From NCBI RefSeq assembly GCF_964340395.1, contig NC_135555.1, positions 6,074,501 through 6,138,500 on the forward strand: a stretch of 64,000 nucleotides of DNA, in the 5' to 3' direction. This DNA comes from Glandiceps talaboti. Taxonomy: Eukaryota; Hemichordata; Enteropneusta; Spengelidae. The notes below the pieces were generated by a model. It did no database searches, had not been told where the DNA came from, and saw only the letters and a program-made list of their open reading frames with translations. Of the stretch, positions 15,536-38,630 are shown piece by piece; positions within the stretch are counted from its first letter, which is position 1, and each line of letters starts with the position of its first letter. Made by a program: the position numbers and the translations under genes.

Positions 15536-15621
<86 letters not shown>

Positions 15622-16878
15622 TTAATCAAACGCTGCAAACCCACAACTGTGTCAGTTGATTAACTGTCTGGGCCAATTCTGTGACAAGTGGAAACTTAAA
15701 GCAAACTTTAAGAAAACAAAGGTGGTAACATTTCGAAAGGGAGGTCATAGTTCAAGGAACGAAAAATGGCATTTAAATGGTACGAGTATCGAGGTGGTTA
15801 GCTACTATAACTATTTAGGACTGTTGTTATCATGTAGAAATAAGTGGTCTAAGGCAGTTAGTAATCTAGCTGATCAGGCCCGTAAAGCAATGTTTTCTAT
15901 ATTTAGTTTTGAGCGTAAAGTTGGCGTTATAACCCATGAGGTTTATTTTAAATTGTTTGATAGTCTAATCTTGCCTATTCTTTTGTATGGTTCTGAGCTT
16001 TGGGGATTTCAGCAGTTTATGCAAATTGAAATGGTACAACTTAAATATTGTAAACATTTTCTTGGAGTGCGACAAAACACTACAAATGAAGCGGTACTTG
16101 GGGATTGTGGCAGAACGCCAATTTTTGTAAAATCATTGACGAGATGTATAAAGTACTGGCTACGTCTTACTGAACTCCCCGATAACAGAGTTGCCAAACA
16201 TGCTTATAAATTGATGCTGAAAATTGACGAAAGTGGTCACACGTCTTGGGCAACAGAAGTAAAAAATATTTTGCAATACTACGGTTTTGGTATAGTTTGG
16301 GTGTCACAGGGAGTGGGAGACACTATTTCTTTCGTAACGGAGTTCAGTCAGCGCGTATCCGATATTTATAAGCAAAATTGGTTTTCTGATGTTTGCTCCA
16401 AGGAGTCTTTAAATACATACTGTAATTTCAAGAGCGTATTAGAACCAGAAAAATATTTGTTGCAGCTTTCAGATGTAAGATACAGACATGCATTAGCGAG
16501 GATTCGATGTGGGAGTCATAAGTTACGTATACAGGAAGGTCGTCACAGCGGCTTAAATGTTACTGAGAGAATATGTGAAGTATGTTCAGAGGGTATAGAA
16601 GATGAATTTCATTTTCTATTAGTATGCCCTTTGTATCAAACAGTGAGGGAAGCTTTACTACCTCAGTATTACTGGATATTTCCTACACGTCAAAAGTTTT
16701 TCAATTTAATGAATGTGCAGTCTGCAATATTACTAAGAAACCTTGGTAAATTTATATACAAAGCAATGTACTTAAGAGAGGAATTCTATTCCAGCTAATG
16801 TCATTACACTCTTTCTGCTTGATGTATTATATTATTTTTTGGTCACGTAGGCCTGTGGCCTGTAGTGATAATAAACAT

Positions 16879-16977
<99 letters not shown>

Positions 16978-17217: not shown

Positions 17218-17321
17218 ACATTTGTATACGAAACTAACATTAGCGAGTTCCTACATAGCAGGTAAATCGATTTCAGTTTGAATACCACCCCATCGCTACC
17301 CATATTGCGGGTCCCACTCTC

Positions 17322-17381
17322 CTACCACCACCACCACCACCACCACCACCACCACCACCACCACCACCACCACCACCACCA
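17322..17381. repeat. (ACC)n microsatellite
   Basis: About 60 bases of CAC trinucleotide, some 100 bases upstream of the sulfotransferase start codon on its transcribed side, so it may lie in its 5' UTR or promoter. Confidence 0.95.
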
Positions 17382-20097
17382 AACCGAATTTCGTTTGACT
17401 TTGATAAGCTAAAATATCCCTTAAATTACTAGAATATTTCATTTTTCTCAGCAGTGGTATTTCCACTTCACGCAGATTTTTTTTCTATAAGTGATGCGAC
17501 AGCAGCATTATATTCAACTTGTCAGAATTTGGATCACCATACATTCAGACATGTGTATTTTTCCGGTTAATAGTAAAACGACAAACTTCAAACACGATGC
17601 TATATATTGTCCATTTAGACGCGTTTTTACTTTGTGGCATGAACAGTTGTAGAGTCACGCTACAAATATAAGTAAGGCAATAATTTTGTTTTGTAATGAA
17701 GGAAAAAGAACGTCAATTAATGTGAGCCCTACCTTTAGAATCGGAATAAGAAACCCCATGTACCTGGTTATTTCCAGTCATCTTTTTAACTGCTCTATGT
17801 CACAAACAGCCTCTAGGGTATGACTTTCAAATATCTGCTTTTTAGAATAGACTCATCAATAGATTCATCATTGTGGGCGAGCCACGACATCAATTGGTGG
17901 CGCGCCCTCAACGACAATTAATTCTTCCAGTAAGTAATTAATTACCAACAAGTTTATACCCGTAGTATAGCTGTGGAAAGTTGTCATGCCGAACTAGAGA
18001 AAATGAAATATTATATCAAGGAAAGCTAGAATACATAAAAACAACTGTACACCACGGGTGATAGTGGGGATTGATGAAATACACAAATTTGAATGACAAA
18101 GCCAGTATTTTTCCCAAACTGATAAGCCTACTGGTAGGTGACTTTAAATAAACAACATTGAATCACTCTTGTCTTCTTTTCTTGCTTATATACTTGTAAG
18201 TCGAAACGAACTGGCGAACGAACACAGTGTAGACGCAGGCGATTTTGATGGGATTGCTGGAAATAAGGAAAATATCACACGAATTCTGCTACTGCAAATG
18301 TATCAATATATATACTATAGGATAATATATGTCAAAAAATCAATATTTTAAACTCCATACTAGACTGAGCCTAGCCAACCTGTGTGGCGTGAATTTTGTA
18401 AAATTTGGTAGCTGTTGTCTGTAAATTGCGGCCACCGTCCATCAGAAAGTTGTTTGAATTATCTGCTTACAAAATACCAGGTTATTATATGGCTGTGGAC
18501 AGTTAAATGGAATCTCTGTAACCTTTTTCTTCTTCAAAATAGCCACTGTATACTTGTCTCAGGTGCTCCTGGGGAAAGCGCGAACTACAAAACAGCGTCC
18601 TCAACGGTGGATTTGACGATCACACTTTCCGAGTCTATTCGAGGCTATTTCGAAATGACAGAACAGACAGAAAACTTTACTTCGAGAGTTATAAGAATTG
18701 TCAAATGAAGGGAAATCTCTTATGTATCAGTAGAGATACCCATATTACAAAGCCATCGTAGGAAAAGTTATCTTTAGTGTGCTCTGTTGCTTATTTCAAG
18801 ATGGTTCAAATCACGAATAACGGCCGATCTGCCTTTTTCCCAAAGTTCGGAGATTCCTCTTTCGGACATAAATATTGAAGTTACTTTATTAGATATCATT
18901 TCGACATTCGTTACGAAAATTCAGAAGGCTTTTAGAAGAAAAAAATATTGAAAAGACTTTGTGATATTTATTACATGTACTTTACTGCATATATGCGGCA
19001 TGCAATACCCATTTAAGTTAAATGTTTTTGGATGAATATTCAAACATTAAGGGGACAAAACAGAGAGGAATTAAACTTTGACTAAAATCCACAAATTTCA
19101 AAAGTAACTATTGTTGAGGAAGCAATCAAAGACTGTTAAGTTTTTGGATATCAAAAATAATCTTTCACTACAAGGAGGAGAAAAACAAATTTAAACTACA
19201 TTTCCTTGTACAGATCTAAGATTTCATTTTTTTTATTGGCAAGTCAATAAGAAAACATCACAAATAAATTGATACATCAGAAAGAAGACCGTGGCAGTCT
19301 AACGACTATGTTGCGGTTTCCTTTTTATGGTTGGGGGGGGGGGGGTATTAATATTCAAATTTTATGCACGTTTTGGTTGGTTGATCCTTGTCCTGTGTTG
19401 ATTTAGTTCTCAATGTAAGATCATTTGGTTTGATGTTTCCAATTCTTAGAACTATTGTTGGTACATTTATTTGCGTATAGTAGTTGTGTGTATAGATGCT
19501 AGCATGTCGTTTATCTCTCCTACCCAATCAACTTACAGTATCTCTTTGATTTACATGTAGCAACATCTAGTCTCTGACGAACTATTTTGAGTACAGCCTC
19601 ATCACACGCCCAATTTACGAGAGTAAACATTTTAGTACTTTCATTGTCGCAAATTTTATTGAAACTTTCTTTTTTAATTTTATTTCAATTGTAACAAGGC
19701 TGTTATGATTTGATACTAACCACTTTTTTTTCGGGGAATCACACTCATTTAGTTAGCTTAGAGTTACTCTTACTCAGGAATCGCTGGTCATTGACATCAA
19801 CAAAATCAGTAATTAAGCAGTATCATACACTCTTACATACATTAACCTAAGAAAGCACGCTTGTCCAAAAAACAAAGCCTGTTACCATATTTTTTTAAAT
19901 AGTTTTAATGAGTTATTTGCATAATTAGTGATTCCCTTACGGGAGGCATTCAGTTTAAATCTGGTTCTCTCTTGTTTCTCTGCTTCTTATTCTTAGCAAA
20001 ACCAAAGTTTTCATAGTGACTGTCTAAGAATTATGCAGGCAAAATAGTGGACATTCATCCCACATTACATAATCTATTTCCATATTTCCATTCGCAG
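17382..20097. other. Noncoding interval between sulfotransferase and channel gene
   Basis: This stretch separates two divergently transcribed genes and should contain both promoters plus any 5' UTR exon of the channel. No core promoter was recognised. It contains a fragment of repeat family A (about 19240-19300), a G-run at about 19334-19345 and a piece resembling the GGAGGCATTCAGTTTAAAT block near 19940. The 97-residue plus frame at 18415 has no recognisable motif or splice context. Confidence 0.5.
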
Positions 20098-20167: not shown

Positions 20168-21526
20168 ATGAAGAACCAAGGAACAACGACAGGACATGTT
20201 AGCTGTAGTGAAGTCCCATCAGGTTCTCACACTAATATCGATAATATGAAGGGTGACTCAAATACCGTTCCTAGTACTACAATTGTAAAAGGAGATTGGA
20301 ATAAAGTAGCGTCTGACCCGAACAACCAAACGCCAGACTTGAGTGCTGAGAGTGATGCTGGCTTCGTTCCTGTCGTCAAAAGGTTTATGGCGAATACGAC
20401 TGCGCATGGAATTCCTCGTGTTGCGGCGGCGGGAAGTAACCGTGGTCGTCTATTGTGGGTGTCCATTTTTGTCATCGCCATGATAGCATTCGTTGTCCAG
20501 ACTTCTTTGTTGGTGACAGCCTATTTAGACTTTGAAGTGGTTAACAAGGTAGGTACTAACAGTAAAATGTTTACCAATTTCGAAGTGTGATATTTTTAAT
20601 ACACAGAGCAGGTTAACATTTTCAACAACAAACGCCAATGACTTATGTTTCATTCCAGAACGAAATTATAGTAAAAATATGTTTTGATTGAAGCTGCCAA
20701 GTGTCTGCGATCAGACACGGTTGTGATACAGTGCATTGCATGTTACAGTTTACTCGCTGTGTTTGATACAACCATGCAGAAACCAATAACAAACTCCACA
20801 TGCTACAAATCAAGATAATGAATACAGTTTCTTGCTACATTTTGTCTCTAGTGAAATGAACTAACATGAGACTATGCAGGTATCAAAACATTGGCGTCCG
20901 TCTGTCTTCATATGGGAAGTTTAATTGGTTTATTTCGATCAGATCAGATGTAGCAAGGTACAAGAAATTGCGATCTTGCTGTCTTAAAGTGTGGAGTGTG
21001 CATGTGCTGTTTCTCATTGGCTTCGAATTCTGCAAGATTTTATCAAACAATTAAGAGAGTGACAGCAACCTACAACGTGCTGTAATGACCACCAAATTGT
21101 ATACCCTCAACTTATACAGTCATAAAGAGTTTAAATTTTTTACTCTAAATTAAAAAATATTCATCATTTTAAATTTTTTTTATTTTAAAAAAAATTAAAT
21201 ACAATACAATACAATACAATACAATACAATACAATACAATACAATACAATACAATACAATACAATACAGTTTTGATTACACAACCAAGACTTTAACCTGT
21301 AAGCAGTGATTGACGTATTCCATTTATTAAAATAATTTGTCTTGCCCACTTAATGAAGTATCTTTTGTATTTTGTTGACGACAGATAAATGTGGTTACCG
21401 AACCCTCTCTACGGTTTCCAAGTGTCACAGTTTGTAATACCAATAAACTTCGACGATCTGCCATAGCTGAGAGTGTCCACAAAGACATGCTGATTGTTGA
21501 CGGTGACGTCATACTGCCTTATTACA
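20168..21526 (+). CDS. Channel exons 1-2: N-terminus, TM1 and first extracellular strand
   Basis: Exon 1 is 20168-20548 (donor GTAGGT, phase 0) and exon 2 is 21385-21526 (acceptor GACGACAG, donor GTACGT, phase 1). Exon 1 gives a polar cytoplasmic tail of about 90 residues, the [10 protein letters not shown] segment with the conserved His-Gly that controls gating in this family, and TM1 ([20 protein letters not shown]). Exon 2 gives [13 protein letters not shown], the classic post-TM1 strand with its first conserved cysteine. The foldback element at about 20731-21085 sits in intron 1 and an (ACAAT)n array at 21197-21266. Confidence 0.88.
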
Positions 21527-24500
21527 GTACGTTCTCAAATTATTAAAATAATATTCAAAAGACGGTATTTTCTAAAGTTGTAAAACTTTTGTTTTCGTAA
21601 TACTTAAGCCCACTGACAAGTGTTAGCACTTGTATTTAAAAAAAAAAACCACACACACATTTGGATTGCCTCAAATTCGAATCTCGGTACATGTACTCAG
21701 TTCATTATCATAACATTAAAGGTGTTGAGTCAGTGAAGGCTCTTGCAATACGTATTACGGTACTGAAAATTGCAAGTACACCAAATTTTAAGGCGAGTTA
21801 AACCTGTAAATCAAGACCTGTAAAGAAATTGTATTCCACAATTGACTTGAACATTCATAGACAGCAGCAACTCACAGTAACTCATTTCGGATATCTTCAT
21901 TTGTATAGATATAGACATGATATACACTAATTCGTTTCATAATACATGTACTTAAAATGATTGGTGATTTATAGTATCGAATTGTTTATGAACATTTTGC
22001 GCCTTTATTCTACTAACCTTAGTGAATCATTGCATTAACTGAAACCATTGTAGGGTAATATGACTATGAGTGTGCTGGTGTCTTTAAATATTCCCAGGTC
22101 CATGCATACAAGGTGATTTTGCTTGTACGAGTGGTTTGTACTGTATTAAGCGATTCTTGGTCTGTGACGGAGTGAGACATTGCAAAGGTGATAACAGTGA
22201 CGAAGAAGGCTGTATATACGGTAATTATAGTACAGGCATACATAAGTTAATCTAATATGTTCTCACACAATACGAAAGTTCAGAGCACATGCGATAATAA
22301 ATTGAGAAAACGGATAATTATTATCATGAATATCCATCTGACTTTCAAAATATGCCGCCTTTTCAGCACTCTATTGGATACATATTAACACTGAACCATG
22401 AGGGGATGGCCTTCACTGGACTTCTTGGGAAGTGTTTATATAAAAACGTGTCTGTTGTTTTCATCCATCTGGTTATACTCCATTTTCTATAGTTTTAACA
22501 TTTGTTGATCGATTTCTCGTTACTGATTCTAATATTGGTATCAGTAATATAATTACATCATTAATAGCATACTAAATTCGTCTAATTTCATCCAAGACTA
22601 CACATTCGCCAAGTATTGCATGGTTGTATCTAACAGAGCAAGTGAACGTGAACAGTAACGTGACACGCGCTGTACGTACACATTTTACTGGATTACTTTT
22701 GAAAACACAGACAAGTGTACAAACTGATACAACATTGCATGGATTACAGGTGAATGTGGTAGTGACCAATTCCGATGTGCAAGTGGCAGTTTCCTGGGAC
22801 CATGCATACCACAGTCCTACTATTGTGACAGATATATACATTGTTATGAAGGCGAAGATGAGAATAATTGTGGTAAGTAAATTGTCAATTAAATCGAAGA
22901 AAACTATAAGTTGACTTTACTGTAATCTTGAATAATGACGTAATAAAATGTCTAGAAGATAAGATACCCGGTTTCACTCATATTGGGGTTTTCTATGCAC
23001 AGAAAGTCATTTGCCGCTTTAAACACTGTCTGTCACTGAAAGTGGTGTGGAGCAATTTAGGAGAGTTTCACTGTACAGACAAATAAAGTGCTTCATTGTC
23101 ATTTGTAGCATGTATACTGCGACCTTGACCTTCGGAGTATTATATTAAAAATTGTAATTACATAATTATCTTATTTTTGATAACAATTGTATTTCTTGGC
23201 CATGTAGAATGCAAGAGTAGGGAGTTCAAATGCGAAACCAAAGGTGGTTGTGTGTCTAAAGACAAACGCTGTGATGGAACTAAAGACTGTTTAGATGGAT
23301 CAGATGAATCTGGCTGCCCTAGTAAGTACAAATAATTGCCGTTTAATTTGTTGATCTAATGCATGATACAATCAACAATGGATGATTTTTCTTCATATTT
23401 CATCTCGGTCATTGTATGTCTGTTTTTTCTTTAAGGTAGTAATAATTGTGACGGCGATTCCAGATGTCACGCCGGTGTGTGTCCACAATGCTGTGCTACA
23501 GGATTCAAGTGTAACTCCAGTAAGTGTATTCCCGACGAGTTTCACTGTGATGGTTATAATGACTGTGGCGATTGGTCGGATGAGGTGAACTGTACAAATA
23601 ATTCCCCAACGACTGTGGGTAAGAATAATTTCAATTGTTGTCCTTTTCCAAGAATGATATCTAGGATTGTAGGAATGTTCGTTAGAAACCCTTCCATACT
23701 TTACATGAAGAGTCAGAATCATATTTCAAATTAATGACACCAGGGAAGATCACCGTTGAACCTTAATATGCCACTGAAATTGAAGTTGTATTAACATGGC
23801 CTGTGGTTGCTTTCCTCTTTTTAACCGTGAAAAATGACTTTTTAAAAACCGTGCATCCCATCGCATAATAAATAATAGCGGAGCATTTTATATTACGTCA
23901 CGTGATCTATGAAATCAACGTACATAAATAGTTTAAAATGATTTAATTATAACTAGCCGATATGAATCATTAATAACTTCGACACCAAGGGAGAAGTGAA
24001 ATGACATTTATAAAAATGTAACCATCATGTGGAGGCACCAAGTCTTAATTTATATTTGTGTAGTATATATTAATTGTTCTTCACATTTTTCATGGTTTCA
24101 GGGTTTTGTTCCTCGGGTCAATTCAGGTGTTTAAGTGGTCAATGTATCGTACAATACTGGAAATGTGATGGTGAATCTGATTGTTTCGATGAATCTGATG
24201 AAGATTCGAATCTTTGTAGTGATACCGGTAAGTAATAGTTGATTGTTTCTACCAGAGACCAGATTGGCGTTTAAGGGATTTGGCAAATCAATGATCTCAT
24301 TTCATATAAGAACTTATCAATGATCAGTGATATTATTAGCATTGTAGTTCAGCTCTATGGATTTCATATTTTAACAACTTTGCAACATGACCATGAGTTT
24401 TTTCCCCATTTCCCCTATTTGATCTTGTTGATTAAATACGTGTATGTGGAACGCGGGTGGGGATCAAGATAAGTTTTCATTCGACAAAAACTATTTCAGA

Positions 24501-27500
24501 TTTATCAATAACACTATGCAGTGGAAGTGTTTATTTTACGTAAACATAGTACATAGTACCACAGTTTTGCGATTTTATTTGATTACGTACAACATCATTC
24601 TATCACTTCTGTTTTGTTGAAAGGACGCCGATGGCGTGATGATAACAGGTGTGGTCCCGATCATCCTCTGCCTAATGGAGCACCAGCTGAATGTAATCCT
24701 GACAGTTCTAGTCCGTGTTGTTCAACACATGGATGGTGCGGCAATGACTCTGAGTTCTGTGAATGTTTTGGGTGTATCAGTTATGTGTTAGGTATGGCAA
24801 TTTTTTCCATTTTCCCTCTTGGTGTATCTTTTAATTTGGACGTAAATGTCTACCACCCCCTTTCTCATTCTTTGTTTATTACTTGAGATCAAATATAACG
24901 GTATTAATTTACAACTTTCCATTACATCACTGCCAAAGATCATTTGTGTTAATCAGTTAATCTGTCCTCATATCACAATTGCAGGATCGTCTTTTGCCAT
25001 CATCAGAGACAAATCTGTGGCCAAGTGTCAGATTGAAATATAAAGTCGACTCCCATAGAATACAATGTGTACATGAAAGCCCATGAACGACCATGAACCT
25101 GAAAGGTATATTTATAACTAGTGTGACACAGGTCATTCTGGTCCAAACTAAGAATATAAATACTGGGATAAAAAGGAAAACTTTCATCCAAATATTGTTT
25201 TCTCTCTTGTTTGACAGGTTCTTGGCGAAGTGACGGGAGATGTGGGCCTTTATATCTTTTACCTAACGGTAACCCTTCACAATGCAATCCTGATACCCCA
25301 TGTTGTTCAGCTGATGGTTGGTGTGGTATCGGATCTGAATCATGTAACTGTGCGGGATGCATAGATTTTAGACCAAGTAAATATTGTCTAACTTTTTTTT
25401 ACGTCCACAACTGTATATATCTATCCCACAGCAGATAGTGTGTGATCGAATTCCGATGTTGTAATCATGCCTAGCTTTGATTTTTGTCGTTTTATCCTAT
25501 GAACACATTTTGAAAAAAAAGATAAAACCCTAAACACTACATATCGTCAAGTTCAGGCTTATACATTCGAGAGAGATGATGCAGGCAATTTTATCTTTAT
25601 AGCTATTTGCCAATCATAATGTCGGATTTATGTAATCACAAACATCGACTAATATATATTCCCACAGTTGTTCTATAGACAAGGAACATACTTTTCCTTT
25701 CTCTTGGTTGTCCATTGTACAGGTTTCATTACCAATCGCAAACGTATGTTTTGCAGGTCTCTGGAGAGAGGACGCAAGGTGCGGACCATCAAACTTATTG
25801 GTCAGTGGACAACCTGCGGAGTGCAACCCTGCGGGCGATTCGCCCTGTTGTTCAGGCGGTGGCTGGTGTGGCAATGGTCCTGCTTATTGTCAATGTGCTA
25901 ATTGTGTTGATTATTCAGAAGGTGAGTGCTAATTTGTTGCTTACTAATCTTACAAAAAAAATAATATATAACGTTTCATATCAGTTGGATTTGTCAAACG
26001 CCGTCGAAAATTGTTAACATTAGAAAGTTGGAAAGCTTGACCAACGTGGGTTTCTTACAGAAAAATTCAAAAATATTTAACGACATATATAGTCCACTTT
26101 CCTTTAGAAGTACATCGTTCAGCATGACTTTCACTCCAGGGTTTATATAAAGTTCAATAGATTATTTTTTTTTATATTAATGAAATGTTGCCGCATTTTA
26201 TTATTTTACGTCTAAAAGTATTATTTACTCTGTTCAAATCCACTATTTTTAGGTACCTGTCATCGCTTATTCAAGTCAACAAATGGTATAATAAGCTCTC
26301 CAAACTATCCACAACCTTACGATAATAGTTTGGACTGCACTGTCACAATTGACGTCAGAGGAGGGAGCGTGGGAAAAATCAGTTTCCAGTTTCATGATTT
26401 TGAAATTGAAGGTCAAAGTGGCTGTAACTATGACTACGCTCAGGTATTGTAACGAGGCAATAATTTCATGTGTTATCTGTTTGCAAGACATTGTCGTTGG
26501 TGTCACTCTTCTGTCCTACGCGCGCTTAGATTTAGTAGCGCCACCAACTATCGATATCGCATATCTGTCTTTTTCTTTCCATTATTAGAAGTGATCATTG
26601 GACGCCGCTCTAATTTCACACTTTGTGCACTTTCGGCAAATACTTATCATTACGTTTGACCTGCGGACGTGTGAATACTGATAAGATATTTTGTTGTTTT
26701 AACAGTTCGAAGACGGGTTGACATATCGCGTATCTCCAAAGCTGTGTGGAACTGAATTACCAATGCCCTGGACATCTGATTCAGAACTCGTATATGTGAG
26801 ATTTCATAGTGACGGAACTGGCAACAGAAAGCGATACGAAATTACATATAGTTTCCAGCAAATTATTGATAACAGTACAGACGGCAATACACGTAAGTGC
26901 CGGCAATGTCAGATTATGTTTTCACGCGATATAAAAAACATTCATTTTGTGTGACAATGTTAGGTATACTAGCTAGACGTTCTGACGTTACTTTTTATTA
27001 TACATAACTTGGTAGCATGTCTTGTTAGAATGTATGAATTAAACACATCGAAGCCCATCCCTATTGTCAGAAGATGTCAGGAAACATACCGCAAAGATAT
27101 CTTTTTCAATAAGAGTTTGTTTTCGTGCGTAATTACTAAAATTTTAACTTTCAACGCCAGCAATAAACAGTCATGTTCTCCAACACGATTTCGTCACAGG
27201 TATTTGAAAATACAATTCCACGTATGCTTTTTAAATCATGGAATCGTAATTTCATATTACGGTACATAAAAATTATTTATTTTTATAGACCCTTGGAGAG
27301 ATGATGGCAGGTGTGGCGTTGATTATCCGTTAGCGAATGGAGCGCCCTCACAGTGCAATCCTTACAGTTTGTCTACGTGTTGTTCAAGTGCTGGTTTTTG
27401 TGGTAATGGTGACGACTACTGTAACTGTGATGGATGTGTAGATCATAAACGCGGTACAACTTTTTTTTTAAATAAAGTTTGTTACAGCTATATCTGTATC

Positions 27501-29105
27501 TCTGTTAGAAATTTGTCTTGTAGAAAAAGTGTTGAAATTCGTCTTTTTTCATTCAGTTTATAAGTTATGCCATGTTTTCCTAGAGCAATTTAGGCATCTC
27601 TTCTGTACTCTGCTACAGTTAAATATTTATGAGTATCAAATAACACTGCAAGGGATACAGTACAGAAACACAAACAATTAAATGGCAAATATCACAAATT
27701 ATGTCTATATGATAGCGACAATGTATAGGCCTAAATGAATTAATTAAAGGGGAATATATTTATATATGTACCGCTTCTAACGTTTAACAATATCGGTTTC
27801 TTGTACAGATAATTGGCGAGAGGACGGCAAATGTGGTTATTATTTTCCATTGCCGAATGGGGGTGATACAGAATGTGATCCAACGAGTGATAGTCCATGT
27901 TGTTCGACGAGTGGATGGTGTGGTATCGGACCTAACTATTGTGATTGCTATGGTTGCATCGACTATAGACCAGGTAATGTGGATCAAACCTCGGGTGGGA
28001 TATCATGAACGATGACGTAATGATATAGTATGTAAGATGTGTCATGCTATCAGCTTTCACTTTCTTGAAGTGAAAATGCGCATGGTGGATGTGTGAGGGC
28101 GCCCTGTGTCGGCGACCATTACACACTACGCAATCTTAGTGGTGAATAGTATTAACTTTTATATTTGCACCTCGACAACTTTTTGTTGTAGTTTCTTTAC
28201 AAATGTGGATTAATTTTTGTTATGACTTGTTTGTTTTTGAAGTAATTTCGTAGTCTACTACTAGTATACCAGTCTATATATAACGTACATTCACGTTCAT
28301 ATCTTAATGTTATCCTTGCTAAATCTGTTTTCATTGATCAGAGATGTATTGTCACGTATTTAATCAACCAAGTTGAACACTGTATGGAAATTCCATTGAC
28401 ATTTTATTGTCATCATTTTAATTTACATTACGTTCTTAGTCTAGGCTGCTTGGATATTGAACACAGGCTCTGCCTGCATGATAGACAGAGATTATGCTTG
28501 CTGGCTTGTATTTTTAAGGTTGTCTCGAATAGATAGAGATAGAGATAGAGTTCTTATTAGTTATCATAAAAGGATTAGGTATGGTAACACACATTCATGT
28601 ATGGAGTCTTAGTTGAGACTGGCTAGCGACAGAGATCAGAAAGAAAGCTCTGGTATCGTGATAGAAGTACGTGTATACACATTGAATGAATATGTAAATG
28701 TTGGTTAGGAGCATCATATACATTATAGACTGCAGAGTACGTTGCCAGGAGGCATACTTATCAACCCCCTCCCTCATTTGTGGATAGGGATAAGAAGAGC
28801 GCCCACAACGGCTGATCTTTCAGTCTAATACATGAAATACTCGAACTAATCTTTCAGGTACATGTGACGACTTCATAAGTTTGATGTCTGCTACTATTAT
28901 GTCCAGTGATTATCCCGAGAACTATCCTATTAATGAAGATTGTACTCTAACTATCGATGTCAGGATACATGGTGTAGGAAAACTATATTTCCAGTTTCTT
29001 GATTTCGACATCGAATACGAGACTAGATGCAACTATGACTATCTTCAGGTACGGTTGTTTGTAATGAAGTGACGAAGTAGTATTACAAGTAATATTACTT
29101 TTTAC

Positions 29106-29166
<61 letters not shown>

Positions 29167-29191
29167 GCATGTGTGTGTGTATGTCTATGTC

Positions 29192-29240
<49 letters not shown>

Positions 29241-32200
29241 GACCTGTAAATGATTCAAATTAGTGCGAACAGTATTTATATACATAAATTTGAGCCGAAA
29301 TTATGACATACAGTTGCCATAGTATTACCTTGATTAGAACAGTTGTGCACCTAATATTCTATTCTTTGAAATGCGCATTTAATAACTCTATGAGCCATGG
29401 TCGATTTATTGTTTACCGTATCCGTAAGATTTGCCAAAAATTACACTGTGGGCGAAAAATAGTGAAATGTAAATTGCTACAGTGTATAAATCCCAATGCT
29501 ACTAAATCTTTCAACCTACAACTACTATTTAAGCAATAAACCACCCCCTGGGGATGGTATACCAAGAGGTTTTGACCAGTGAACGAAATATATGCACGAG
29601 CGATAGCGAGTGCATATATTGAGTTCACTGGTCAAAACCGAGTGGTATACCTTCCCCAGGGGTGGTTTATCGCTATTATATTATACCAGTATATTGAAAA
29701 TATCGGAAACAAGATAAGAAATAACGTTTTCTCGTTTCATATGCGCCTCTGTGTCTAATTTGCATAACAATAACGCTTCTTTTCAAGACAGCTGATCTTG
29801 GCCTCAATGTGAACGTCGTGCAGCGACTGGATTTATTTTATCTGCTCGTCGTTTCTAGGGATAATCTGTACATTGATCGGCTCATTAAAAGTGCACAGTG
29901 ATGAATAAACAACCTGTTTGACTCAAGGTATAAACTTGAAGTGGTTTATTGAATACAGCGTGCTTCGATCGTTCCCGGCTGAATTCGCGACTCGGTGAAA
30001 TGATGATAGATAGGTTGATATTTACAATGTATTTATATTACTGGAAGTTACGTCAGTAGATTTTCGGGTTTGAGGATTTCCCTCTCGGATTGATGACTGA
30101 TACTCTAGGACAGGATCCCAGACAAATTTCTATTTAGATTAATGGTAAGTCGGCCAGTGTAACCTCTTTCACTTGCTTCATTTTTATGACAGGACAGGAC
30201 AGCTCACCAATGTTTCCACTCCAGCCGCGCCGCGCCGAGGCTGGGCTGGGACCGATCTCGTGCATGCCTAGCGCTATAGCGCCTTGACCTTAGTACATGT
30301 AGTAGGCGATGGTTTGAACAAATACGCGATGACTGGGTTGCTCTCGAAATTTCCTTCATAATTTCTCATAAAATATTGTCTCATTGAGAGAAAATCCTCC
30401 TCTGACAATTCGAAGAGTTCACTATCAGTATCACGGCGGACTACAACTCAACGCTCGTAGACGAACAAAATTTGGACGCGTGCCAGCAGTGCATTATCGT
30501 ACCAGCAGTGCATTATCACTCGTTTTAGACGCGCTAGTTCGATGTCTAGACCAATCAGATCCCTCGATTTCCACCATCAATATACTGGTATAATATAATT
30601 CCATATATTCAACATGTTTGATTTGTATACTTGACATATTGCAGTTTCGGGATGGGATTTCACTACGTGAATCACCGCAACTATGTGGACAAGAATTACC
30701 ATCATGGATATCTGATTCAGGACTCGTGTACCTTCATTTCCATAGTGATGAAGTGTACACTAAGAAAGGCTATGCGTTCAACTATACATATGACACAGAT
30801 AACAATAACTTAACCAGTAAGTATTGTTCGTCGACTTCTTTGTATGCTTATTGCCGAGCTGATATGTACCGTTAGAAGTGTGTTATATGCTCACAAAACA
30901 TCTGATTTACAACCCTATTATAAAGGGTCGGGATTCCAACCATTACATGTATGTAATTACCCGTCGACAGAACTGATATGAGGGCGCATATTGGAAGGAT
31001 ATTCCATTCAAGAAATTACCATATGATGATAAATAGTCCTCCAACCTAGATATTTTCACCACTAGAAAATGTTCTGATTTTACAGTCTTCAGCTAGTTCT
31101 CAAAGACTAATTTTAGTAATTACCAGACTGGTACATTGTGATCATGTACAAGAAAGCATTTTCGTCACCATGTTTTTGTTCGCCAGCGAAAATAAGTGGT
31201 AAGCAAATTTTTAACATAAACATCCCTTTCAGATTCTTGCAACCAGGTGATTACATCAGTGTCTGCTACATTAAACTCACCTAATTATCCTGAAAATTAT
31301 CCTGCTGGAATATACTGTAGTATAATCATTGATACAAGGGAATATGGTCCAGGAATAATTCGTTTCCAGTTTCTTGAGTTTGACGTTGAAGACCATACTA
31401 CGTGTGATTATGACTATGTGCTGGTACGTTCTTTAAATAAATGTCAATGTTCTTAAATTTTGCTCTTTGCATTTTTCGCCAGTGTGTCTACATCCATTCA
31501 AATGCAGTATTGAATGGCAGTTTGGGATTATACCTGTTAAAAACTGCAAACACGCGGTAAAACTTATGTAGTATATTAAAGATAACCCATGTTTAACCAT
31601 TAATGTACTAGTACGACATCAACAGATGATGGTATCAAAAACGTCCATGTCATGAGTGGTCATAGGTTGACTAGAACCACCTTTCTATCATCATCATCAT
31701 CGTCGTAAACCACAGCCCTTTTACGATACCGTACAAGTCACATCGTCAAAAGGATTGTTTGCTGTGACACAGAAAAAAATTAAGCTCTGATTTGCGAGAA
31801 TGTCTATTATCTCCAATTCTATCAACTGTCAGTTCCACGGGACGGGTATATGCCCGGAGTGTGGTATTAGAAATATCACACACATTGCACTGACAAGGTT
31901 ATATGATATATTTATGCCATTTTATACCATCGATACCCAATCTAAGAATTGCAAACATCATCACTGACTTTCCTATATATTGATATAGTTTGAAGACGGA
32001 ATTACTCATAGAAAATCTGAACTGCATTGTGGACAGTTGTTACCATCATCATGGACCTCTGATACTGGATTAGTGTTCGTGGCATTCTACAGTGATGCAC
32101 TTGTCCAAGGTAGTGGGTATTCTATCAACTATACATATGAGATGATAACTGATGAACTAACAACACAAAGCGAAATAGTTCATCGTGTCGTGATGCAAGC

Positions 32201-35200
32201 CGAAACTAGTGAGTATTAGACTTTCACTTTTATTTTTTGTTTACAGTTGCACTTAATACCATATATTTGGACGATGCATATGACCCCATGTCGTGAACAT
32301 GAAATTTGGAATAAATTCCTTTTACTAATTCGTTTGATTGTGATTGTAGTTACAGAGACTAACTGTTTCCTTTGTGACAACGGAACATTATGTATTCCTG
32401 AACATCTGTTGTGTGATTCCACCAACGATTGCCGGGATATGACGGATGAGAACAACTGTACTCGGTCTACAACGACTAAAAGACCAGTATCTGTGACGAC
32501 AACACCTGGTAAGTGTACAAATGTACACGTGGTACTTTCGATTCACATGTATATTAACCAAAATGTAGTAGAATAACGTGCATATGTCCATTTGCCAAGA
32601 AAGTACGAATAGTCAATCTGAACGTCACTGTCCTGTAGGTTTGCGATGTCTTCTCTTGACGGTGTAGAGACTTTAAAAAAGTAATCGTTGTGTAAATTTT
32701 ACACAGTTATGTTTCCTCATCGTTTCAGCTGACCGTGGTTGTAGCTCGACTGAATTTGATTGTGGTGGAGGACGATGTATCCATGGTTACAAGGAGTGCA
32801 ACACAGTCGCCGATTGTCCAGATGAAAGCGATGAGCACTCAAACTGTACCAACAAAGGTGAATACATGTGTATATAATAAATTTGAACTCATTGTTTAGG
32901 TAACAAATGAAACTCATATACCTTTGTGAACGTTCTAGTCCGCCTAAAGTTTGGAATAGTACTTTTAGATTATGCCATTAGTATTCTTCCTGTATCGAGT
33001 ATATACATTTTGGTCAATTTATCTGTGTGATTGAATGTTTTAGGAAGTAGAATGACTTGTAAACTTTAGTTTTTGATATTAGAATCCTTACACTTAACGA
33101 CTTATCCAATTTCTTCCAGTGTACACAATCTCTGACGTGTTTGAAAATGGTTGGTACGATGAGTTCCTGGACTTGTCTGACGACCCTTTCACATATGATA
33201 AATTTCGTCAGAATTACTACCGTGACAATCGTTTTGAAAGGGTTAAAGGTGAAAATCCCCCGGATTGGGAAGGCTTTATGACCTTCAGTTCAACACCCGA
33301 TTTCAGCGATCTAGAAAATGTGCTGAAATTGTCAAAAGCAGAGGTACGGCAATATGGACACCAGGCAGAAGACTTTATTGTACAATGTGCATTTGATGAG
33401 AAGCCGTGCATTGCTAGGTATGGGTCATTCAAAATTTAACACGCGACAATTGTATTGACTGTTGTAAGCCTAACGTATTTGAGACATCACTAGCTACCAC
33501 TGGTACTGACGTACCTGGGTTGAACACTAAGCCGTATATATTGCAAACTTGTCTACATCAAAAGTTATTTCTTAAAATCATATATTTTAACTTGTTAGGT
33601 CCTGGTGATATTTTGCATGTCAGCAAAGTTAATGGTGGTCATGTGTTGTGATTGGTAGAATGTGTCTCAGCAGCATATTTGCCACGAAATCCAAGTTATT
33701 CAAATCTCTCAACGCATTTGTCATATTATCAACAGACAGTTATTTACCATCTTGTCAACTCTCCTTTTCTCCAAATATTCGACGGCCATTTTAGAATCTA
33801 GAATGGGTTACTTTTTAAAGTTTTGGTCCGTCCTTTATAATTTTATGGTGACCCCTGACCTTTGTTATTTTCCTTTATTTCAAGTGAGAATGGGTTGGAG
33901 TTTTGTTGAACAAGGTAACAGCAATAGTTTAAGTGTTTTCTTTTCGAGGCGCGGTTTTCCTATTTATTTGAATATTTCCGTTATTTTTTCATACAGTGAA
34001 GATTTTTACATTTTCGAAGATGATGCGTATGGAAACTGTTACAAATTCAACCATGGCAAATACGGACAACCTGTCCTTAATGCAACTAGAACTGGAGCAA
34101 GTTTTGGTAAGTTTTGTCATGTTTTGGAGAACATTGACAGTCTATGTTAGTGGATTTGGTATGTAGACACACACAGATAAACACCACATTAAATTTTATA
34201 CACAATTCAAGAAAATTTCAATCTTGCCTATGAAAATCCGTCAGTTTTGTACATACAAAGGATGTTGTCACCGGTAAAATATTGACAGGTTTTGTTGTCA
34301 AAATCACCCTGTCTGTATCTGTCTTGAATATTCAAACTATATTCATTTTACAACATATCGTAATGTGTCATTCTGTAATAGATATTCTACATTTCAATTG
34401 ACTATAACGTGGAGGGGTGATGGGGGGGGGGGGGGGCTTTGATTGTCATTTATATTCTGATGCACTACGTTAATGTGAACGAGACATACAAATGAATATA
34501 TTTAATGCTCTGATTGAATAACTTGGTGTCTGAATATTATTGGGTCATACACAGGCCTGTGATAGTTTACTGGCCAATGTTGTCATCATATGCCACTTCG
34601 TTTAGATCAAAATGTCGCAAGATCTTCGCTCTCATTCGAAAACCCCTAAACGAGCCGTAGTTCAGTTTGGTCGACACAAATCAGTTTCAATAATATTATC
34701 TCTAAGATGCTACATTGTTAGATAATATCTGACAATTATAACATCTTCAGTGTAACGTCATTCCCACATACAATGGCTATTATTCTTACATAATTGCAAA
34801 AGAATAGCCCCCCCCCCCCATGTGAGGTTTCATACTGTCATACTGTAACACATGATTAGTTCATGGTTAGAAGGTTCAACAGTTGGAATGGTAGATAATT
34901 TCACATGGGATAACAAAACTACATATCCACATACCTTACGCCGTGTTTTCTCCCTTCTTCGCATATCTTGTTGTAAACTGACAGGGTTGAAATTGACGTT
35001 GTTCATGGAACAGTCTGAATACATTAGTCTGTATGGTCGAGATGCTGGAGCACGTGTAACTATCACTCCCCACGATGTCCCAACATTCCCTGAGGATGAA
35101 GGATTTACCGTGAGACCGGGCACTGTCACGTCACTCGGAATAAGAGAGGTAAAGCATATTTTATGTTCTCGAGATTGTTTGGCGACAATACACGTACTAC

Positions 35201-35625
35201 ATCGAAAACAAGTGGTCCAGGTGTGGTGCATTTATTGAAAAGAACACCTGTTGTAAGACAGGCTTACACATGCAAATTACTTGTGTATATTAACATGTGT
35301 TCTTGTCGAGATATTATAGTTACTAATGGTTCTCCGAAAATCCACCAACTGAAGATGATCTTACCTGTACAACATGCAATATTCACAACGTGTATACAAT
35401 ATTTTTCACTTTTACAGAGCATAATGACAAGACTACCAGAGCCTCATGGATCATGTGGGAACAGTGAAACTACAGAGTTTATATTTGGTAAAGAGTATCG
35501 ATATAAAGTAGAGGTAGGCTGTTTCTACGTTTTTCTGAAATATAACTCAAGACTTGAACAAAACTGTTGCCGATTACACAATACGTTACAAGTTACAACA
35601 ACGGTATGAATGGATATGTATGTAT

Positions 35626-35665
<40 letters not shown>

Positions 35666-38630
35666 CAATAATGATGATGAAGAAGAAGAAGAAGAAGAAG
35701 AAGAAGAAGAAGAAGAAGAAGAAGAAGAAGAAGAATGAATCATCGCACTATGATATCAGGCTTTGGATATACCTCCAATAAATCAGTTATTTATATATCC
35801 CCCATTCTATATTTCAGTCCTGTCAAAAGTCATGTCGTGAGAGGGCGGTTGTCGAGAGATGTGGATGTTCTCTTACAGTTCACTTGGAAAATGCACCACC
35901 ATGTTCCATCCTTAACAAAACTCAAGGTAAAATTTGTGTGTTTGTAATAGCTTAAATGTTTAAGTGTAGCCTTCTTCCAAATTCTATGTATGCTACATTT
36001 GTACAGTCGATGGGAAACAATCAACCTATCATTGAACGCCTAATATGTTGACATGTTGACACATACTAATCATTTATCAAGTTCTACATCGAACCCATCA
36101 AATGTACGAGATATCACGTACCTATGAAATGAAATCCCAGATCACGTACCGATGGTTTTATCTTAAATATTTCATTATCCGATTAACTAGATATTGATAG
36201 CTTTGTTTCTTTTTTCTATCGTCGATTAAACATAATAATTACATTTTTAATCTTCTTTTCGTTTTAGATTTATGTCGTCAGTTGGTTTTCTATCTCTATC
36301 AAGTGAAAGCGCTGAATTGTTACTGTCCACAGCCATGCTGGTACGTCAACATTGGTTTTATTCATACATTAATTGCCATTCCCCTTTGACCCGTGTTCAT
36401 ACTCATTTAGGTGGCTTTACACTTTATACCTTGACGTAAAGGATGTAGAAATCCGTGAAAGACAATCGAAACAATTATACTCGCTCGCTCGCTCGCTCAC
36501 TCACTCACTCACTCACTCACTCACTCACTCACTCACTCACTCGCTCGCTCGCTCGCTCGCTCACTCACTCGCACTCACTCACTCACTCACTCACTCACTC
36601 ACGCACGCACGCACTCACTCACTCACTCACTCACTCACTCACTCACTCACTCACTCACTCACTCACTCACATGATTATTTTTTTCTGTTCTTTGCAGGGA
36701 CAAGTATTACACATACAGTGGATCACATTCTGCATGGCCCTCACAAGTGTACTTGGTAAGACTTCTCTTGTTGTCTCACCTCACCCTTTCAATGTAACAA
36801 ATAGACTAACAATGTGTTCTTCTCTTCCAGTGTAACATATAGGCTAATAAATATACTGTTCTTGAGTTACGTGAGATGATGATGTACGAGTCATCTAGGA
36901 CTCTAGTTGTATGTTTGTCAGCTTGGTTTTAAACAACAGATATTGTGTAAAGTTGTCATATTATTACTAACGACACTAGTGTGTTCTTTTACTGTTCCTT
37001 GAGTATGACATTTTGTATCATGCAATTTTTAATAAAACACTGTCCGTGAAGCAAGTTATTGTTGAAATGTGTTATGGGCTAGTTCCCGTGACATCTCAAA
37101 CTAATAAACAACCGTTTACACCATGTTTAAGTTCAATAGTTTATTAGTAACATCGAGACTTCACCGTACAAATCTCCCTGGTTGTGTTTAACTTGGCATA
37201 ACCTTGAAAACACGTGTCATGATTTTTTATATTTCTGTAATAGAAACATCTATTGAGGTCTTTACATGCCAGTCACAATAAAACACGGAACATGAACAAC
37301 ATGGAGGCTGTCAGGTTAGTGTATAATGCTATAAAGTGTATTAGACTTTACCTGTTATTCAATATAGGAGTATAATACATCGCGAAGAATCTTCCTTAAA
37401 ATGTCTGTCTGAAACTATGAACGGATTAGTGGTGCAACTCAAGACATGGTCTGCGTGGTGAATCATGAATTTATCGAAAAGTTCACGTGACCATAGTCCC
37501 TCTATAGTCATAGAGCTGAATATGTGATTGAAAAACTGATTTACATATGACACAATTTCCCTGGAAATGAAGGAAGCATTACTAAAACCACTACAGTACA
37601 GTATAGTACTTGTAAAACTTTGTGCACAAGTATAGATTCTCTAGTTGTACAGTCAATGTGTTATGCCAGGGCTCTCTTCTTACAACTGTTCTCACATGAC
37701 TTCTACAATATACATGTAATTTAGAACATTTACATTTAGTTACAATGGTACTGTGCGACAAAGGTGATGATGATGTTGTTTTTGTTGTAGAGTTAACGAT
37801 TGTGATACATTTGTAAGGCAATTTTACAGAGTTATAGATTCCGTGACATTTTACATCACATTTATAATTTTTCTAAAATATTACTGCTTTGATATTTTTT
37901 TTCAGTTTGAACTTGGCCAGTGTTGAAATTTACTTCGAAGAACTGAGTTATGAAGTCATCAGTGAACAAGCAGCCTATCCGGTAAAAATTATAGATTATT
38001 CTTTGAAACTCTATTGCATAGGTGTATTGTTATCACGAAAATCATGAACGACTACGTTTCAGTTGAAGTAAACAAATGATCTCGGTGTGGATTTAAATAA
38101 ATATGGTATTCCTTTCTGAAACCTGTGTTAAAATGTAAAGTCATTATATAGGCTACAAATAGTTGGCTCGAAAGATTTAAACCTGCACAGCTGCAACTTG
38201 AATATTTCTTTTCATCAAATAACCAGAATGATATATTCTAGATATTAGTCAATTACTTATGAAAACGACATTGCATCTGTACTGTAAATTTGTGGTCAAT
38301 ATTATCAGTAGGAGGTGTAGTGGCAAGACATTTTAGTTTGAATCTTGAATCTTGTGTTTGCGTCATTGACATGATTGATCGCAATAGACTGTACAATTCG
38401 TTTTTTTTAAATATTGAATTAATATATGGTTGAAACCATAGGTCTTGATGTATGTAACCGAATTTCATGTTATTGTTTTTTTCTTCCCCCATCAGCTCGA
38501 AAAGTTATTCAGTGACATCGGTGGAACGCTTGGTCTTTATATTGGTCTGTCAATCATCACTGTCTTCGAATTCTTAGAATTTGTTGTTGATGTCATCAAA
38601 TTGTGTACTTCAGTTTCTCGATCGAAATGA
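20168..38630 (+). CDS. Modular DEG/ENaC channel with LDLa, hevein-like and CUB domains, 30 exons, 1547 aa
   Basis: I assembled 30 exons (coordinates in the module entries below). Their lengths sum to 4644 bases and every junction keeps phase, giving 1547 residues plus stop. The ends are a DEG/ENaC sodium channel: a cytoplasmic N-terminus with the gating His-Gly (80-81), TM1 (about 95-118), the [10 protein letters not shown] strand, cysteine-rich finger/palm/thumb sequence from 1152, and pre-M2/M2 with a GLS selectivity filter. Between residues 175 and 1152 about 975 residues are inserted in the extracellular loop: LDLa x5, hevein-like x3, CUB, hevein-like x2, CUB x2, LDLa x2. Typical family members are 500 to 700 residues long. 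Such trimeric channels pass sodium at the plasma membrane. The inserted modules suggest ligand or matrix sensing, which is inference. The start at 20168 is the first in-frame ATG, but the frame is open back to an acceptor at 20097. Confidence 0.88.
20731..21085. mobile_element. Foldback (inverted-repeat) element in intron 1 of the channel gene
   Basis: The left arm, about 20731-20853, is an imperfect reverse complement of the right arm, about 20925-21085. Blocks such as TTTCTTG...TGCTACAT and GTTTGAT...AACCATGCAG pair with their counterparts. A third, single-armed copy lies at 38726-38930, starting ATGCAGGCATCAGAACATTG against ATGCAGGTATCAAAACATTG here. No coding capacity. I call it a MITE-like foldback element, with uncertain outer edges. 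Confidence 0.65.
21197..21266. repeat. (ACAAT)n pentanucleotide microsatellite
   Basis: About 14 perfect copies of ACAAT within intron 1 of the channel gene, ending about 120 bases before the exon 2 acceptor. Confidence 0.95.
22098..24227 (+). CDS. Channel exons 3-7: five LDLa modules
   Basis: One LDL-receptor class A module per exon: 22098-22220, 22750-22872, 23208-23321, 23436-23618 and 24102-24227. All introns are phase 1. Each module has the six-cysteine pattern and, in most, the calcium-binding acidic end. Modules 1, 3, 4 and 5 carry forms of D-x-S-D-E (DNSDE, DGSDE, DWSDE, DESDE). Module 2 ends EGEDENNC, missing the serine, and may bind calcium poorly. Exon 6 is longer and has an extra [10 protein letters not shown] segment with additional cysteines before its module. 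LDLa domains usually bind protein or lipoprotein ligands through calcium-dependent contacts. They occupy residues about 175-398. Confidence 0.9.
24624..25921 (+). CDS. Channel exons 8-10: three hevein-like (chitin-binding type 1) modules
   Basis: Exons are 24624-24791, 25218-25376 and 25757-25921, each a single module of about 55 residues bounded by phase-1 introns. The pattern is W-R-x-D-x-R-C-G-P, then PLPNG or similar, C-N-P, C-C-S, G-W-C-G, then C-x-C-x-x-C-x-D/S-Y/F. The core CCSxxGWCGxxxxxC is the signature of hevein-type chitin-binding domains. There the serine after CC, the tryptophan two before the next cysteine's glycine, and a later aromatic contact N-acetylglucosamine. Ser and Trp are retained in all three, and the late aromatic is Phe, Ser and Tyr respectively. 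One of hevein's tryptophans is replaced (His, Asp, Gly). They occupy residues about 398-562. Sugar binding is inferred. Confidence 0.8.
26253..26892 (+). CDS. Channel exons 11-12: CUB module 1
   Basis: Exons are 26253-26443 and 26706-26892, joined by a phase-0 intron and bounded by phase-1 introns. The first half has G-x-I-x-S-P-N-Y-P and the [11 protein letters not shown] strand, then CNYDYAQ, where the D-Y pair corresponds to the calcium site of complement-type CUB domains. The second half has [23 protein letters not shown], the usual second cysteine pair and final strands. Residues about 562-688. CUB domains mediate protein or glycan contacts in secreted and membrane proteins. Confidence 0.9.
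27289..27973 (+). CDS. Channel exons 13-14: hevein-like modules 4 and 5
   Basis: Exons are 27289-27453 and 27809-27973, both exactly 165 bases like exon 10, in 1-1 phase. Module 4 reads WRDDGRCG then [15 protein letters not shown]. Here Phe replaces the ligand-contact Trp while the late Tyr is kept. Module 5 reads WREDGKCG then [15 protein letters not shown] and keeps Ser, Trp and Tyr, so it is the best candidate for sugar binding. Residues about 688-798. The equal lengths of exons 10, 13 and 14 point to duplication within the gene. Confidence 0.82.
28858..30816 (+). CDS. Channel exons 15-16: CUB module 2
   Basis: Exons are 28858-29048 and 30645-30816. The first half is 191 bases, the same length as the first exon of CUB modules 1 and 3. 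It has SSDYPENYP, the [11 protein letters not shown] strand and CNYDYLQ, and the second half [22 protein letters not shown]. Residues about 798-919. The 1.6-kb intron splitting it contains a (CTGT)n array (29105-29240), a 140-bp palindrome and a TIR element. Confidence 0.9.
29105..29240. repeat. (CTGT)n microsatellite in channel intron 15
   Basis: Two CTGT runs separated by a CATGTGTGTGTGTATGTCTA segment, about 135 bases in total, starting 56 bases after the exon 15 donor. The antisense frame across it is an artefact. Confidence 0.95.
29533..30597. mobile_element. Long palindrome plus 20-bp TIR element in channel intron 15
   Basis: 29533-29673 is a near-perfect palindrome about 140 bases long. 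Its arms start AATAAACCACCCCCTGGGGA and meet around CGAGCGATAGCGAG. Immediately after it, 29677-29696 (TATATTATACCAGTATATTG) is the exact reverse complement of 30578-30597, delimiting a 921-bp element. The interior carries a direct duplication (CCAGCAGTGCATTATC twice near 30481-30520) and no transposase. I interpret it as a non-autonomous DNA transposon. The palindrome may be part of it or a separate insertion. Confidence 0.65.
31233..32208 (+). CDS. Channel exons 17-18: CUB module 3
   Basis: Exons are 31233-31423 (191 bases again) and 31989-32208. It reads [10 protein letters not shown], the [11 protein letters not shown] strand and CDYDYVL, then [23 protein letters not shown]. After the last strand exon 18 has a 25-residue extension ([18 protein letters not shown]) that links to the next LDLa module. 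Residues about 919-1056. CUB 2 and 3 lie back to back and look more alike than either does to CUB 1. Confidence 0.9.
32350..32857 (+). CDS. Channel exons 19-20: LDLa modules 6 and 7
   Basis: Exons are 32350-32508 and 32729-32857, phase 1-1. Module 6 has [23 protein letters not shown], a divergent calcium site (DMTDE), followed by a short Thr/Ser/Pro linker ([14 protein letters not shown]) likely to be O-glycosylated. Module 7 has [17 protein letters not shown] with an intact acidic end. Residues about 1056-1152. Exon 19 has two in-frame acceptors six bases apart (TTGTAG then TTACAG), so it may start at 32350 or 32356. Confidence 0.85.
33120..38630 (+). CDS. Channel exons 21-30: finger/palm/thumb, M2 pore and C-terminus
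   Basis: Exons: 33120-33417, 33997-34106, 34985-35148, 35418-35513, 35818-35926, 36268-36340, 36698-36755, 37244-37314, 37906-37981, 38496-38630. DEG/ENaC hallmarks appear in order: [32 protein letters not shown] with [16 protein letters not shown] and [72 protein letters not shown], then [15 protein letters not shown] and the M2 helix. Exon 28 (71 bases) is small but is required to keep frame. The introns are not phase-1 symmetric here, unlike the module exons, so this is the old channel core. The tail after M2 is short (LCTSVSRSK). Residues 1152-1547. Confidence 0.9.
35625..35735. repeat. (AAC)n and (GAA)n tracts in channel intron 24
   Basis: A tract of about 38 bases of AAC is followed by ATGATGATG and about 57 bases of GAA, ending 83 bases before the exon 25 acceptor. 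GAA tracts of this type can form triplexes. Confidence 0.95.
36479..36671. repeat. (CTCA/CTCG)n tract in channel intron 26
   Basis: About 190 bases alternating between CTCA, CTCG and CACG units, ending 27 bases before the exon 27 acceptor at 36697. It fills most of the pyrimidine side of the intron. Confidence 0.95.

Follow-up and report, generated by a model that had tools for sequence, protein, structure and literature searches.

A gene at 20168-38630 (+) of the window, the 64,000-nucleotide stretch of DNA analysed here from the enteropneust hemichordate (acorn worm) Glandiceps talaboti, is predicted to encode a DEG/ENaC cation channel subunit, known here from its sequence, whose extracellular loop holds a long chain of LDLa, hevein-like and CUB modules. 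It is predicted to belong to a large family of modular DEG/ENaC channels, encountered here as predictions only, and hevein modules within the loop appear to be its distinctive part. Our best reading as a whole, to which we assign a probability of about 0.5, is that modules and pore form a channel gated via the binding of ligand or matrix.

The gene model was built with a splice-chaining script guided by channel fragments taken from translations, and homologs were afterwards used to adjust where exons 2 and 23 end. The resulting model contains 30 exons with 4638 nt, 1545 aa and a single stop, and every intron is of the GT-AG type. The 30 exons and the exact frame of the original prediction were recovered, but its length of 4644 bases and 1547 residues was not, the rebuilt frame being two codons shorter. 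Unguided chaining gave 25 exons on the + strand with a score of 197 for the gene region, compared with 4.2-13.5 in 20 first-order resamples of that region, 28 on the reverse strand and 23 for positions 100-19000 (+) of the window, the score being based on codon usage from one ORF of the same window plus a Cys bonus. Weak acceptor scores were found for exons 16 (-2.8), 18 (-4.7) and 28 (-3.1), and weak donor scores for exons 2 (-3.0) and 13 (-4.2). Several candidates were rejected during model building. An end at 21502 was dropped for exon 2 and one at 35220 for exon 23, both ends being set by homologs (LPYYxPC for exon 2), the candidate boundaries 32166 and 23478 were dropped for having no GT and no AG, respectively, and the candidate exon 28467-28598 was judged spurious. 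Among annotated proteins with lengths of ~859-2731 and 270-857 aa, none turned out to be identical to the gene product.

All exons lie on the + strand. Exon 1 (20168-20548, phase 0-0, aa 1-127; paralog exon at C8:6050353, 63%) encodes the cytosolic N-terminus, the HG motif and TM1, and exon 2 (21385-21526, phase 0-1, aa 128-174; homologs, and a paralog exon also of 142 nt) encodes a ten-residue segment, finger α1 and LPYY. The insert (aa 175-1149 of the 1545-aa model, 975 residues) begins with five LDLa modules in exons 3 (22098-22220), 4 (22750-22872), 5 (23208-23321), 6 (23436-23618) and 7 (24102-24227), all supported by Pfam and the model and, for exons 3 (80%), 4, 5 and 7, by the paralog. 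These are followed by three hevein-like modules in exons 8 (24624-24791), 9 (25218-25376; predicted fold) and 10 (25757-25921), the two halves of CUB 1 in exons 11 (26253-26443) and 12 (26706-26892), hevein-like modules 4 and 5 in exons 13 (27289-27453) and 14 (27809-27973), CUB 2 in exons 15 (28858-29048) and 16 (30645-30816), CUB 3 in exons 17 (31233-31423) and 18 (31989-32208), LDLa 6 with a Thr-rich linker in exon 19 (32356-32508) and LDLa 7 in exon 20 (32729-32857). Exons 8, 10, 13 and 14 are supported by the model and the Cys pattern, the CUB exons by Pfam and the model, and exons 19 and 20 by Pfam, the model and the paralog. The single-exon modules are all of phase 1-1 and the CUB modules are exon pairs of phases 1-0/0-1; each insert exon is part of a phase 1-1 unit, a mark of exon shuffling.

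The finger resumes with α2 and α3 in exon 21 (33120-33417, phase 1-2; paralog C8:6065930, 76%). The rest of the channel comprises exon 22 with YGNCYKFN in the palm/β-ball (33997-34106, phase 2-1; homologs, paralog), exon 23 in the palm (34985-35148, phase 1-0; end by homologs, paralog 94%), exon 24 at the thumb entry (35418-35513, phase 0-0; model, paralog), exon 25 in the Cys-rich thumb (35818-35926, phase 0-1; homologs, model, paralog), exon 26 with LNCYCPQPC (36268-36340, phase 1-2; model, paralog), exon 27 with the SAWPS segment (36698-36755, phase 2-0; model, paralog), exon 28 with a thumb/wrist segment (37244-37314, phase 0-2; paralog exon), exon 29 with an 11-residue segment (37906-37981, phase 2-0; homologs, model, paralog) and exon 30 with TM2 and its GLS filter, the C-terminus and the stop (38496-38630; homologs, model).

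Pfam analysis was run on an earlier 1561-aa version, which differs from the 1545-aa model solely in where exons 2 and 23 end. It detected ASC (PF00858, 4e-73) in two stretches flanking the insert, CUB (5.6e-59) in three stretches with 197.7 bits against a cut-off of 21.4, LDLa (5.9e-43) in seven stretches, and Chitin_bind_1 (1.3e-4) with 22.6 bits, below the cut-off of 27.8. No member of the EGF family was detected in the gene's protein at E 0.01, and it lacks the EGAS-type combination of EGF and ASC. The six-Cys pattern of LDLa is present in all seven LDLa modules, and the acidic calcium motif C[DN]...C.[DEG].[ST]DE in five of them. The channel part matches ASIC2 (6l6p) at 3.8e-46. DEG/ENaC channels are marked by an HG motif before TM1 and a GxS filter in TM2; in the model, HG was read at aa 80-81, N-terminal to TM1, and a TM2 segment of 31 residues was read together with GLYIGLS and its GLS filter. 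The loop enlargement of about 975 residues, the order of the modules and the channel hallmarks from His-Gly to the GLS filter, as claimed in the original prediction, are all borne out by the rebuilt model. ENaC subunits carry a C-terminal PPxY motif, and none was read in the short, ten-residue C-terminus after TM2. In ASIC1, H73 of the palm is the His needed for proton gating; the corresponding site of the window protein is V (EVVNK vs QHVTK of ASIC2), and identity as an ASIC was rejected.

Modules and pore almost certainly belong to one gene and one polypeptide. This status is well supported because a collinear paralog exists in which nine channel exons are alike in length and phase. The paralog lies in tandem on the same strand and ends ~20 kb upstream of the gene's start codon, with its last exon (TM2 and stop) at 17-175 (+) in the window (ASC 5.4e-7) and its other exons at C8:6050065-6074321 (+), outside the window. 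It encodes TM1, five LDLa, one hevein, two CUB and two LDLa modules and then the channel, with the same phases, whereas the window gene has five hevein and three CUB modules. Exons 21-29 and their counterparts are equal in length at 298, 110, 164, 96, 109, 73, 58, 71 and 76 nt. Matches to the window gene served as guides for the paralog model, with splice sites picked by score and a start codon chosen by the script, and seven extra exons in it (2, 3, 13, 14, 23, 25 and 31) were regarded as script noise and left unused. Between the two genes, the channel exons gave a dN of 0.214 and a dS of 1.08 over 502 codons (Nei-Gojobori), six LDLa exons (240 codons) gave a pN of 0.255 and a saturated pS of 0.804, and one hevein pair (54 codons) gave 0.245 vs 0.677 (pN vs pS); for CUB, dN/dS is not one-to-one, several window exons matching one paralog exon. 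These comparisons support purifying selection on the channel and LDLa exons, and the low dN/dS in a collinear paralog suggests that modules and channel are under selection in a common architecture.

The opposite case, in which an LDLa/hevein/CUB gene nested in or beside a channel gene had been wrongly joined to it, is extremely improbable. False architectures do arise from gene-prediction errors, as stated in PMC3927609, and the Ptychodera flava annotation contains apparent N-half (P0016) and C-half (P0161) proteins, seemingly on the same contig, a pair that automated annotation would have handled as separate genes. However, a channel needs both its TM1 half and its TM2 half, and it is these that flank the modules; the exon phases close exactly across the 30 exons, the tandem paralog is collinear, and P. 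flava P0001 joins LDLa, CUB and ASC in one piece. A single polypeptide joining modules and pore, as originally proposed, is upheld by the collinear paralog, the exact phases and the purifying selection.

The insert very probably lies between finger helices α1 and α2, a position assigned on the basis of a relative, P0002, and of alignment. In the AlphaFold model of P0002, the helices assigned as α1 and α2 occupy residues 103-109 and 543-553 with the insert at ~120-519 between them, and the channel part matches ASIC and FaNaC structures. This model (910 aa, 18 sequences, pLDDT 75, pTM 0.57, insert block pLDDT 28-83) is of a protein with neither hevein nor CUB and gives no module orientation for the window protein. 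Wherever both parts of the channel were matched, in 19 proteins, the insert occurs at the same point. We also considered whether an intron at the insertion point is common to module-free channels, and rejected this: in a separate cluster at C8:7.32-7.48 Mb, in 140 kb of which LDLa, hevein and CUB gave no match at E 1e-4, CNNNxx is followed by a good phase-2 donor in three of four members and by no scored donor in the fourth, so that the phase-1 intron is not shared there.

The same α1/α2 position is occupied in ENaC by the GRIP domain, which conceals α2 according to passages of PMC6197857; these passages also present a speculative model in which GRIP cleavage shifts finger and thumb. The GRIP content is unrelated to the window modules, being β-strand material with cleavage sites in the α and γ subunits, whereas the window protein carries a 975-residue chain of foreign modules. 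FaNaC shares the DEG/ENaC fold with the window protein, and its ligand acts at the finger corner. In the passages of PMC11026163 that describe FaNaC1, the peptide binds at the outer finger corner, this corner is said to matter for gating superfamily-wide and is named as a proposed matrix-tethering site, and changes in the finger domain are reported to affect ENaC, ASIC and FaNaC alike; these passages name no modules in FaNaC, whereas the window protein is modular. EGAS-1 to -4 of C. elegans resemble the window protein as DEG/ENaC channels with an added module, but their modules are EGF, and passages of PMC10424705 report that in oocytes they gave no current different from controls.

The enlarged loop is a trait of the modular DEG/ENaC family rather than of this gene. 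Among the best 120 of 339 proteins found with the model, the highest-ranking are DEG/ENaC proteins of hemichordates, which contain LDLa and also bear Pfam labels for CUB, kringle, PAN, F5/8C or FN3, together with two from starfish, of which one has SRCR; shrimp P0052 (16 LDLa, ASC) and amphioxus P0023 (F5/8C, kringle, ASC) rank lower. A search with the C-terminal 490 residues returned 17 proteins, including three feather-star proteins with LDLa and ASC. For the 18 relatives from hemichordates, starfish and amphioxus, the distance between BLAST match ends gives an insert of 304-1170 residues, and for the shrimp protein it gives 918, the last two of these values including some finger sequence; P0017 and P0018 carry further N-terminal parts. 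The domain-architecture search proposed along with the original prediction found LDLa, CUB and ASC combined at the same site in P. flava P0001, a predicted protein of 1312 aa (NCBI 'uncharacterized protein') that contains a full ASC alongside seven LDLa and three CUB. Its insertion point is as in the window protein, but it has no hevein and its modules differ in order and number. In a 20-row tree the window protein joins P0001 (100/100). In a 34-row tree, from which P0173, P0174 and P0175 were dropped and short-match rows omitted, it joins the upstream paralog (99/92), and the pair falls within a seven-member clade (100/99) with another C8 Glandiceps gene, three P. flava proteins and one from Saccoglossus.

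In the Glandiceps genome itself, 48 finger-exon matches were found, or ~45 loci if three close pairs count as one gene each. A module-like exon lies within 1.5 kb upstream at 24 of the best 30 loci, the window gene and its paralog included, and none was found within that distance at L041, L043, L044, L048, L049 and L050. Loci L027 and L030 match the Glandiceps proteins P0018 and P0010 at up to 100%. A literature search of open-licence papers found no description of these modular channels. The tree in PMC10507113 includes uncharacterised echinoderm and hemichordate channels, and its main text does not contain 'LDL', 'kringle' or 'extracellular domains'; PMC9949801 concerns a hemichordate ASIC, in passages in which 'LDL' is absent. 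The earlier statement that no characterised channel carries this set of modules holds in that hevein in the loop is distinctive and the family was met only as predictions, but it does not hold for the loop enlargement, which is a family trait.

Some of these proteins deserve mention for other features. In P0052 from Penaeus vannamei, a DEG/ENaC protein, 16 LDLa modules occupy the matching position of the finger, which may reflect shared ancestry or convergence. P0017 (P. flava) and P0018 (Glandiceps) are predicted DEG/ENaC proteins with a large N-terminal ectodomain and an extra span, followed by the modular channel. By reading, EGF-like repeats and an FN3-like part were identified in their ectodomains, the repeats in both, and two hevein-like modules in P0017. 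These proteins possibly represent a three-span channel, or else the same gene-model fusion made twice. The region C7:20989658-20990520 of Glandiceps belongs to the same observation.

The eight Cys are invariant in all five hevein-like modules. The predicted structure of module 2 has a pLDDT of 90.9 in the best of five models and 48.0 in the worst, two of the five being at 60.5 and 48.0. Its best solved match is a domain of amphioxus PGRP3 (4z8i; 53% identity, TM 0.81, E 1.4e-4), the only match below 0.001, with wheat germ agglutinin next at 0.11; the sequence matches are 4zxm (5.6e-12) and 4z8i (8.3e-12). Passages of PMC4610682 report that the PGRP3 domain binds chitin, that Trp53 and Trp55 are key, and that Lys-type peptidoglycan amidase activity is increased about five-fold. 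The eight Cys of this BbtPGRP3 chitin-binding domain (4z8i, 4zxm) are matched in the window modules. However, the domain is fused to a PGRP amidase and has both W53 and W55, whereas the W53 site in the five window modules is occupied by H, D, G, A and S; the W55 site holds W, W, W, F and W (F in module 4), and the H62 site F, S, Y, Y and Y. Among 72 modules of 27 other proteins fitting the motif, 20 have W, Y, F or H at W53, 36 have W at W55, and 69 have H at H62. Loss of W53 is therefore common in such animal modules, and sugar binding is not to be assumed; chitin binding by the window modules may have been lost. The probable sugar binding of the original prediction is favoured by kinship to the proven chitin-binding PGRP3 domain and weakened by the missing W53 equivalent in all five modules and by a Pfam score that does not reach the cut-off.

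Hevein-like exons are frequent in the Glandiceps genome, where at least 150 matches were scored. Judged from scored candidates and distances, with no full gene models, hevein modules flanked by a TM1 exon on one side and a finger exon on the other occur only in the window gene (five) and its upstream paralog (one), and two further hevein exons lie upstream of the TM1 exon in a C7 gene resembling P. flava P0017. The ASC (PF00858) label occurs in none of the 45 hevein-search hits. Uniqueness of the hevein and ASC combination as such was rejected, as P0017 carries both, its two hevein-like modules being placed in the N-terminal ectodomain, outside the loop. Outside channels, the 45 hits include amphioxus and Glandiceps proteins labelled MACPF; P0127, P0123, P0128, P0141 and P0142 are Glandiceps/amphioxus carriers of the module, four of the five with that label. 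P0124 (unnamed) and P0159 (from the ctenophore Mnemiopsis leidyi) are hits labelled LDLa and rhodopsin-type GPCR, and the hevein-like module may occur on GPCRs as well. In addition, 33 hevein-like exon matches with near-equal scores lie at C7:13493934-13509626 (-), two kinds alternating at ~0.5-kb spacing, which is a putative long tandem hevein array.

As to how the channel might work, the direct gating by ligand, mucus or microbes suggested in the original prediction is a hypothesis; the insert lies in the gating corner, and a gating role for the modules is therefore plausible. In our preferred reading, the 975-residue module string would protrude outward from the trimer and bind a matrix, mucus or microbial ligand, the LDLa and CUB modules probably with calcium. 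Binding, or its pull, would shift α1/α2 and thereby open or modulate the pore, so that the modules would act on the finger lever externally, through a ligand or a tether. That the modules do affect gating through binding of ligand or matrix has, in our estimate, slightly less than an even chance.

Three other explanations were weighed against it. As proposed for degenerins, the module string could act as a mechanical tether that anchors the channel to matrix or mucus, with force rather than ligand occupancy opening the pore. This explanation fits an extended series of adhesion-type modules at the finger corner, a proposed matrix-tethering site in the passages of PMC11026163, but in the relatives the Pfam labels are kringle, F5/8C, SRCR, PAN or FN3 instead, which suggests varied ligands rather than one anchor, and we consider the pure tether unlikely. 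It is less likely still that the insert is an enlarged GRIP domain cleaved by proteases to release inhibition. The insert shares the GRIP position, the furin-type motif RX[KR]R occurs in the inserts of starfish P0009 and P0012, hemichordate P0010 and P0015 and shrimp P0052, and the upstream paralog has RSKR at a predicted exon junction. However, the motif is absent from the 1545-aa model of the window protein, for which an ENaC-type protease reading was rejected on this ground, and it was found in the insert of only 5 of the 28 proteins scanned, some of them partial, and within an LDLa module in P0010 and P0015; cleavage is therefore not a common rule. About as improbable is a role restricted to surface display or trafficking, in which the modules would serve adhesion, scavenging or assembly while the pore leaks or is gated elsewhere. 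The general-purpose nature of the modules agrees with such a role, as does the finding, by our reading of the hevein and finger-exon lists, that only 8 of 150 scored hevein-like matches are located upstream of a matched finger exon on the same strand at a distance of up to 50 kb. Yet the insert sits in the gating element, away from the termini, and proteins from hemichordates, starfish, amphioxus and shrimp all carry it at this position, which speaks against such a role.

If the modules do gate the pore, these proteins would form a class of animal ionotropic receptors absent from the literature searched and would offer a natural design for ligand-gated sodium channels. The many module combinations of this family are natural insertion mutants for studying how a signal in the finger domain reaches the pore. 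A broader and rather doubtful proposal is that hemichordates use the α1/α2 slot for shuffled recognition modules, giving some forty receptor-channels that would turn microbial, mucus or matrix binding into a sodium current. Under this proposal such channels would serve as ionotropic receptors for pattern recognition or contact chemosensation, and the hevein-bearing pair would be one member type.

Several other features were observed in the window. One is a frame of 2225 residues without a stop at 52432-59106 (+), with ZNFX1 and helicase-type AAA domains. On the opposite strand, a galactose-3-O-sulfotransferase-like frame (3e-36) lies at 14021-15031 (-) and a reverse-transcriptase frame (RVT_1, 1.1e-25) at 9054-10124 (-), and a LINE-like-looking frame with no Pfam match is present at 15626-16795 (+). 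Tectonin-like repeats at 46939-47580 (-) scored 20.2 bits and thus fell short of the Pfam cut-off of 30.
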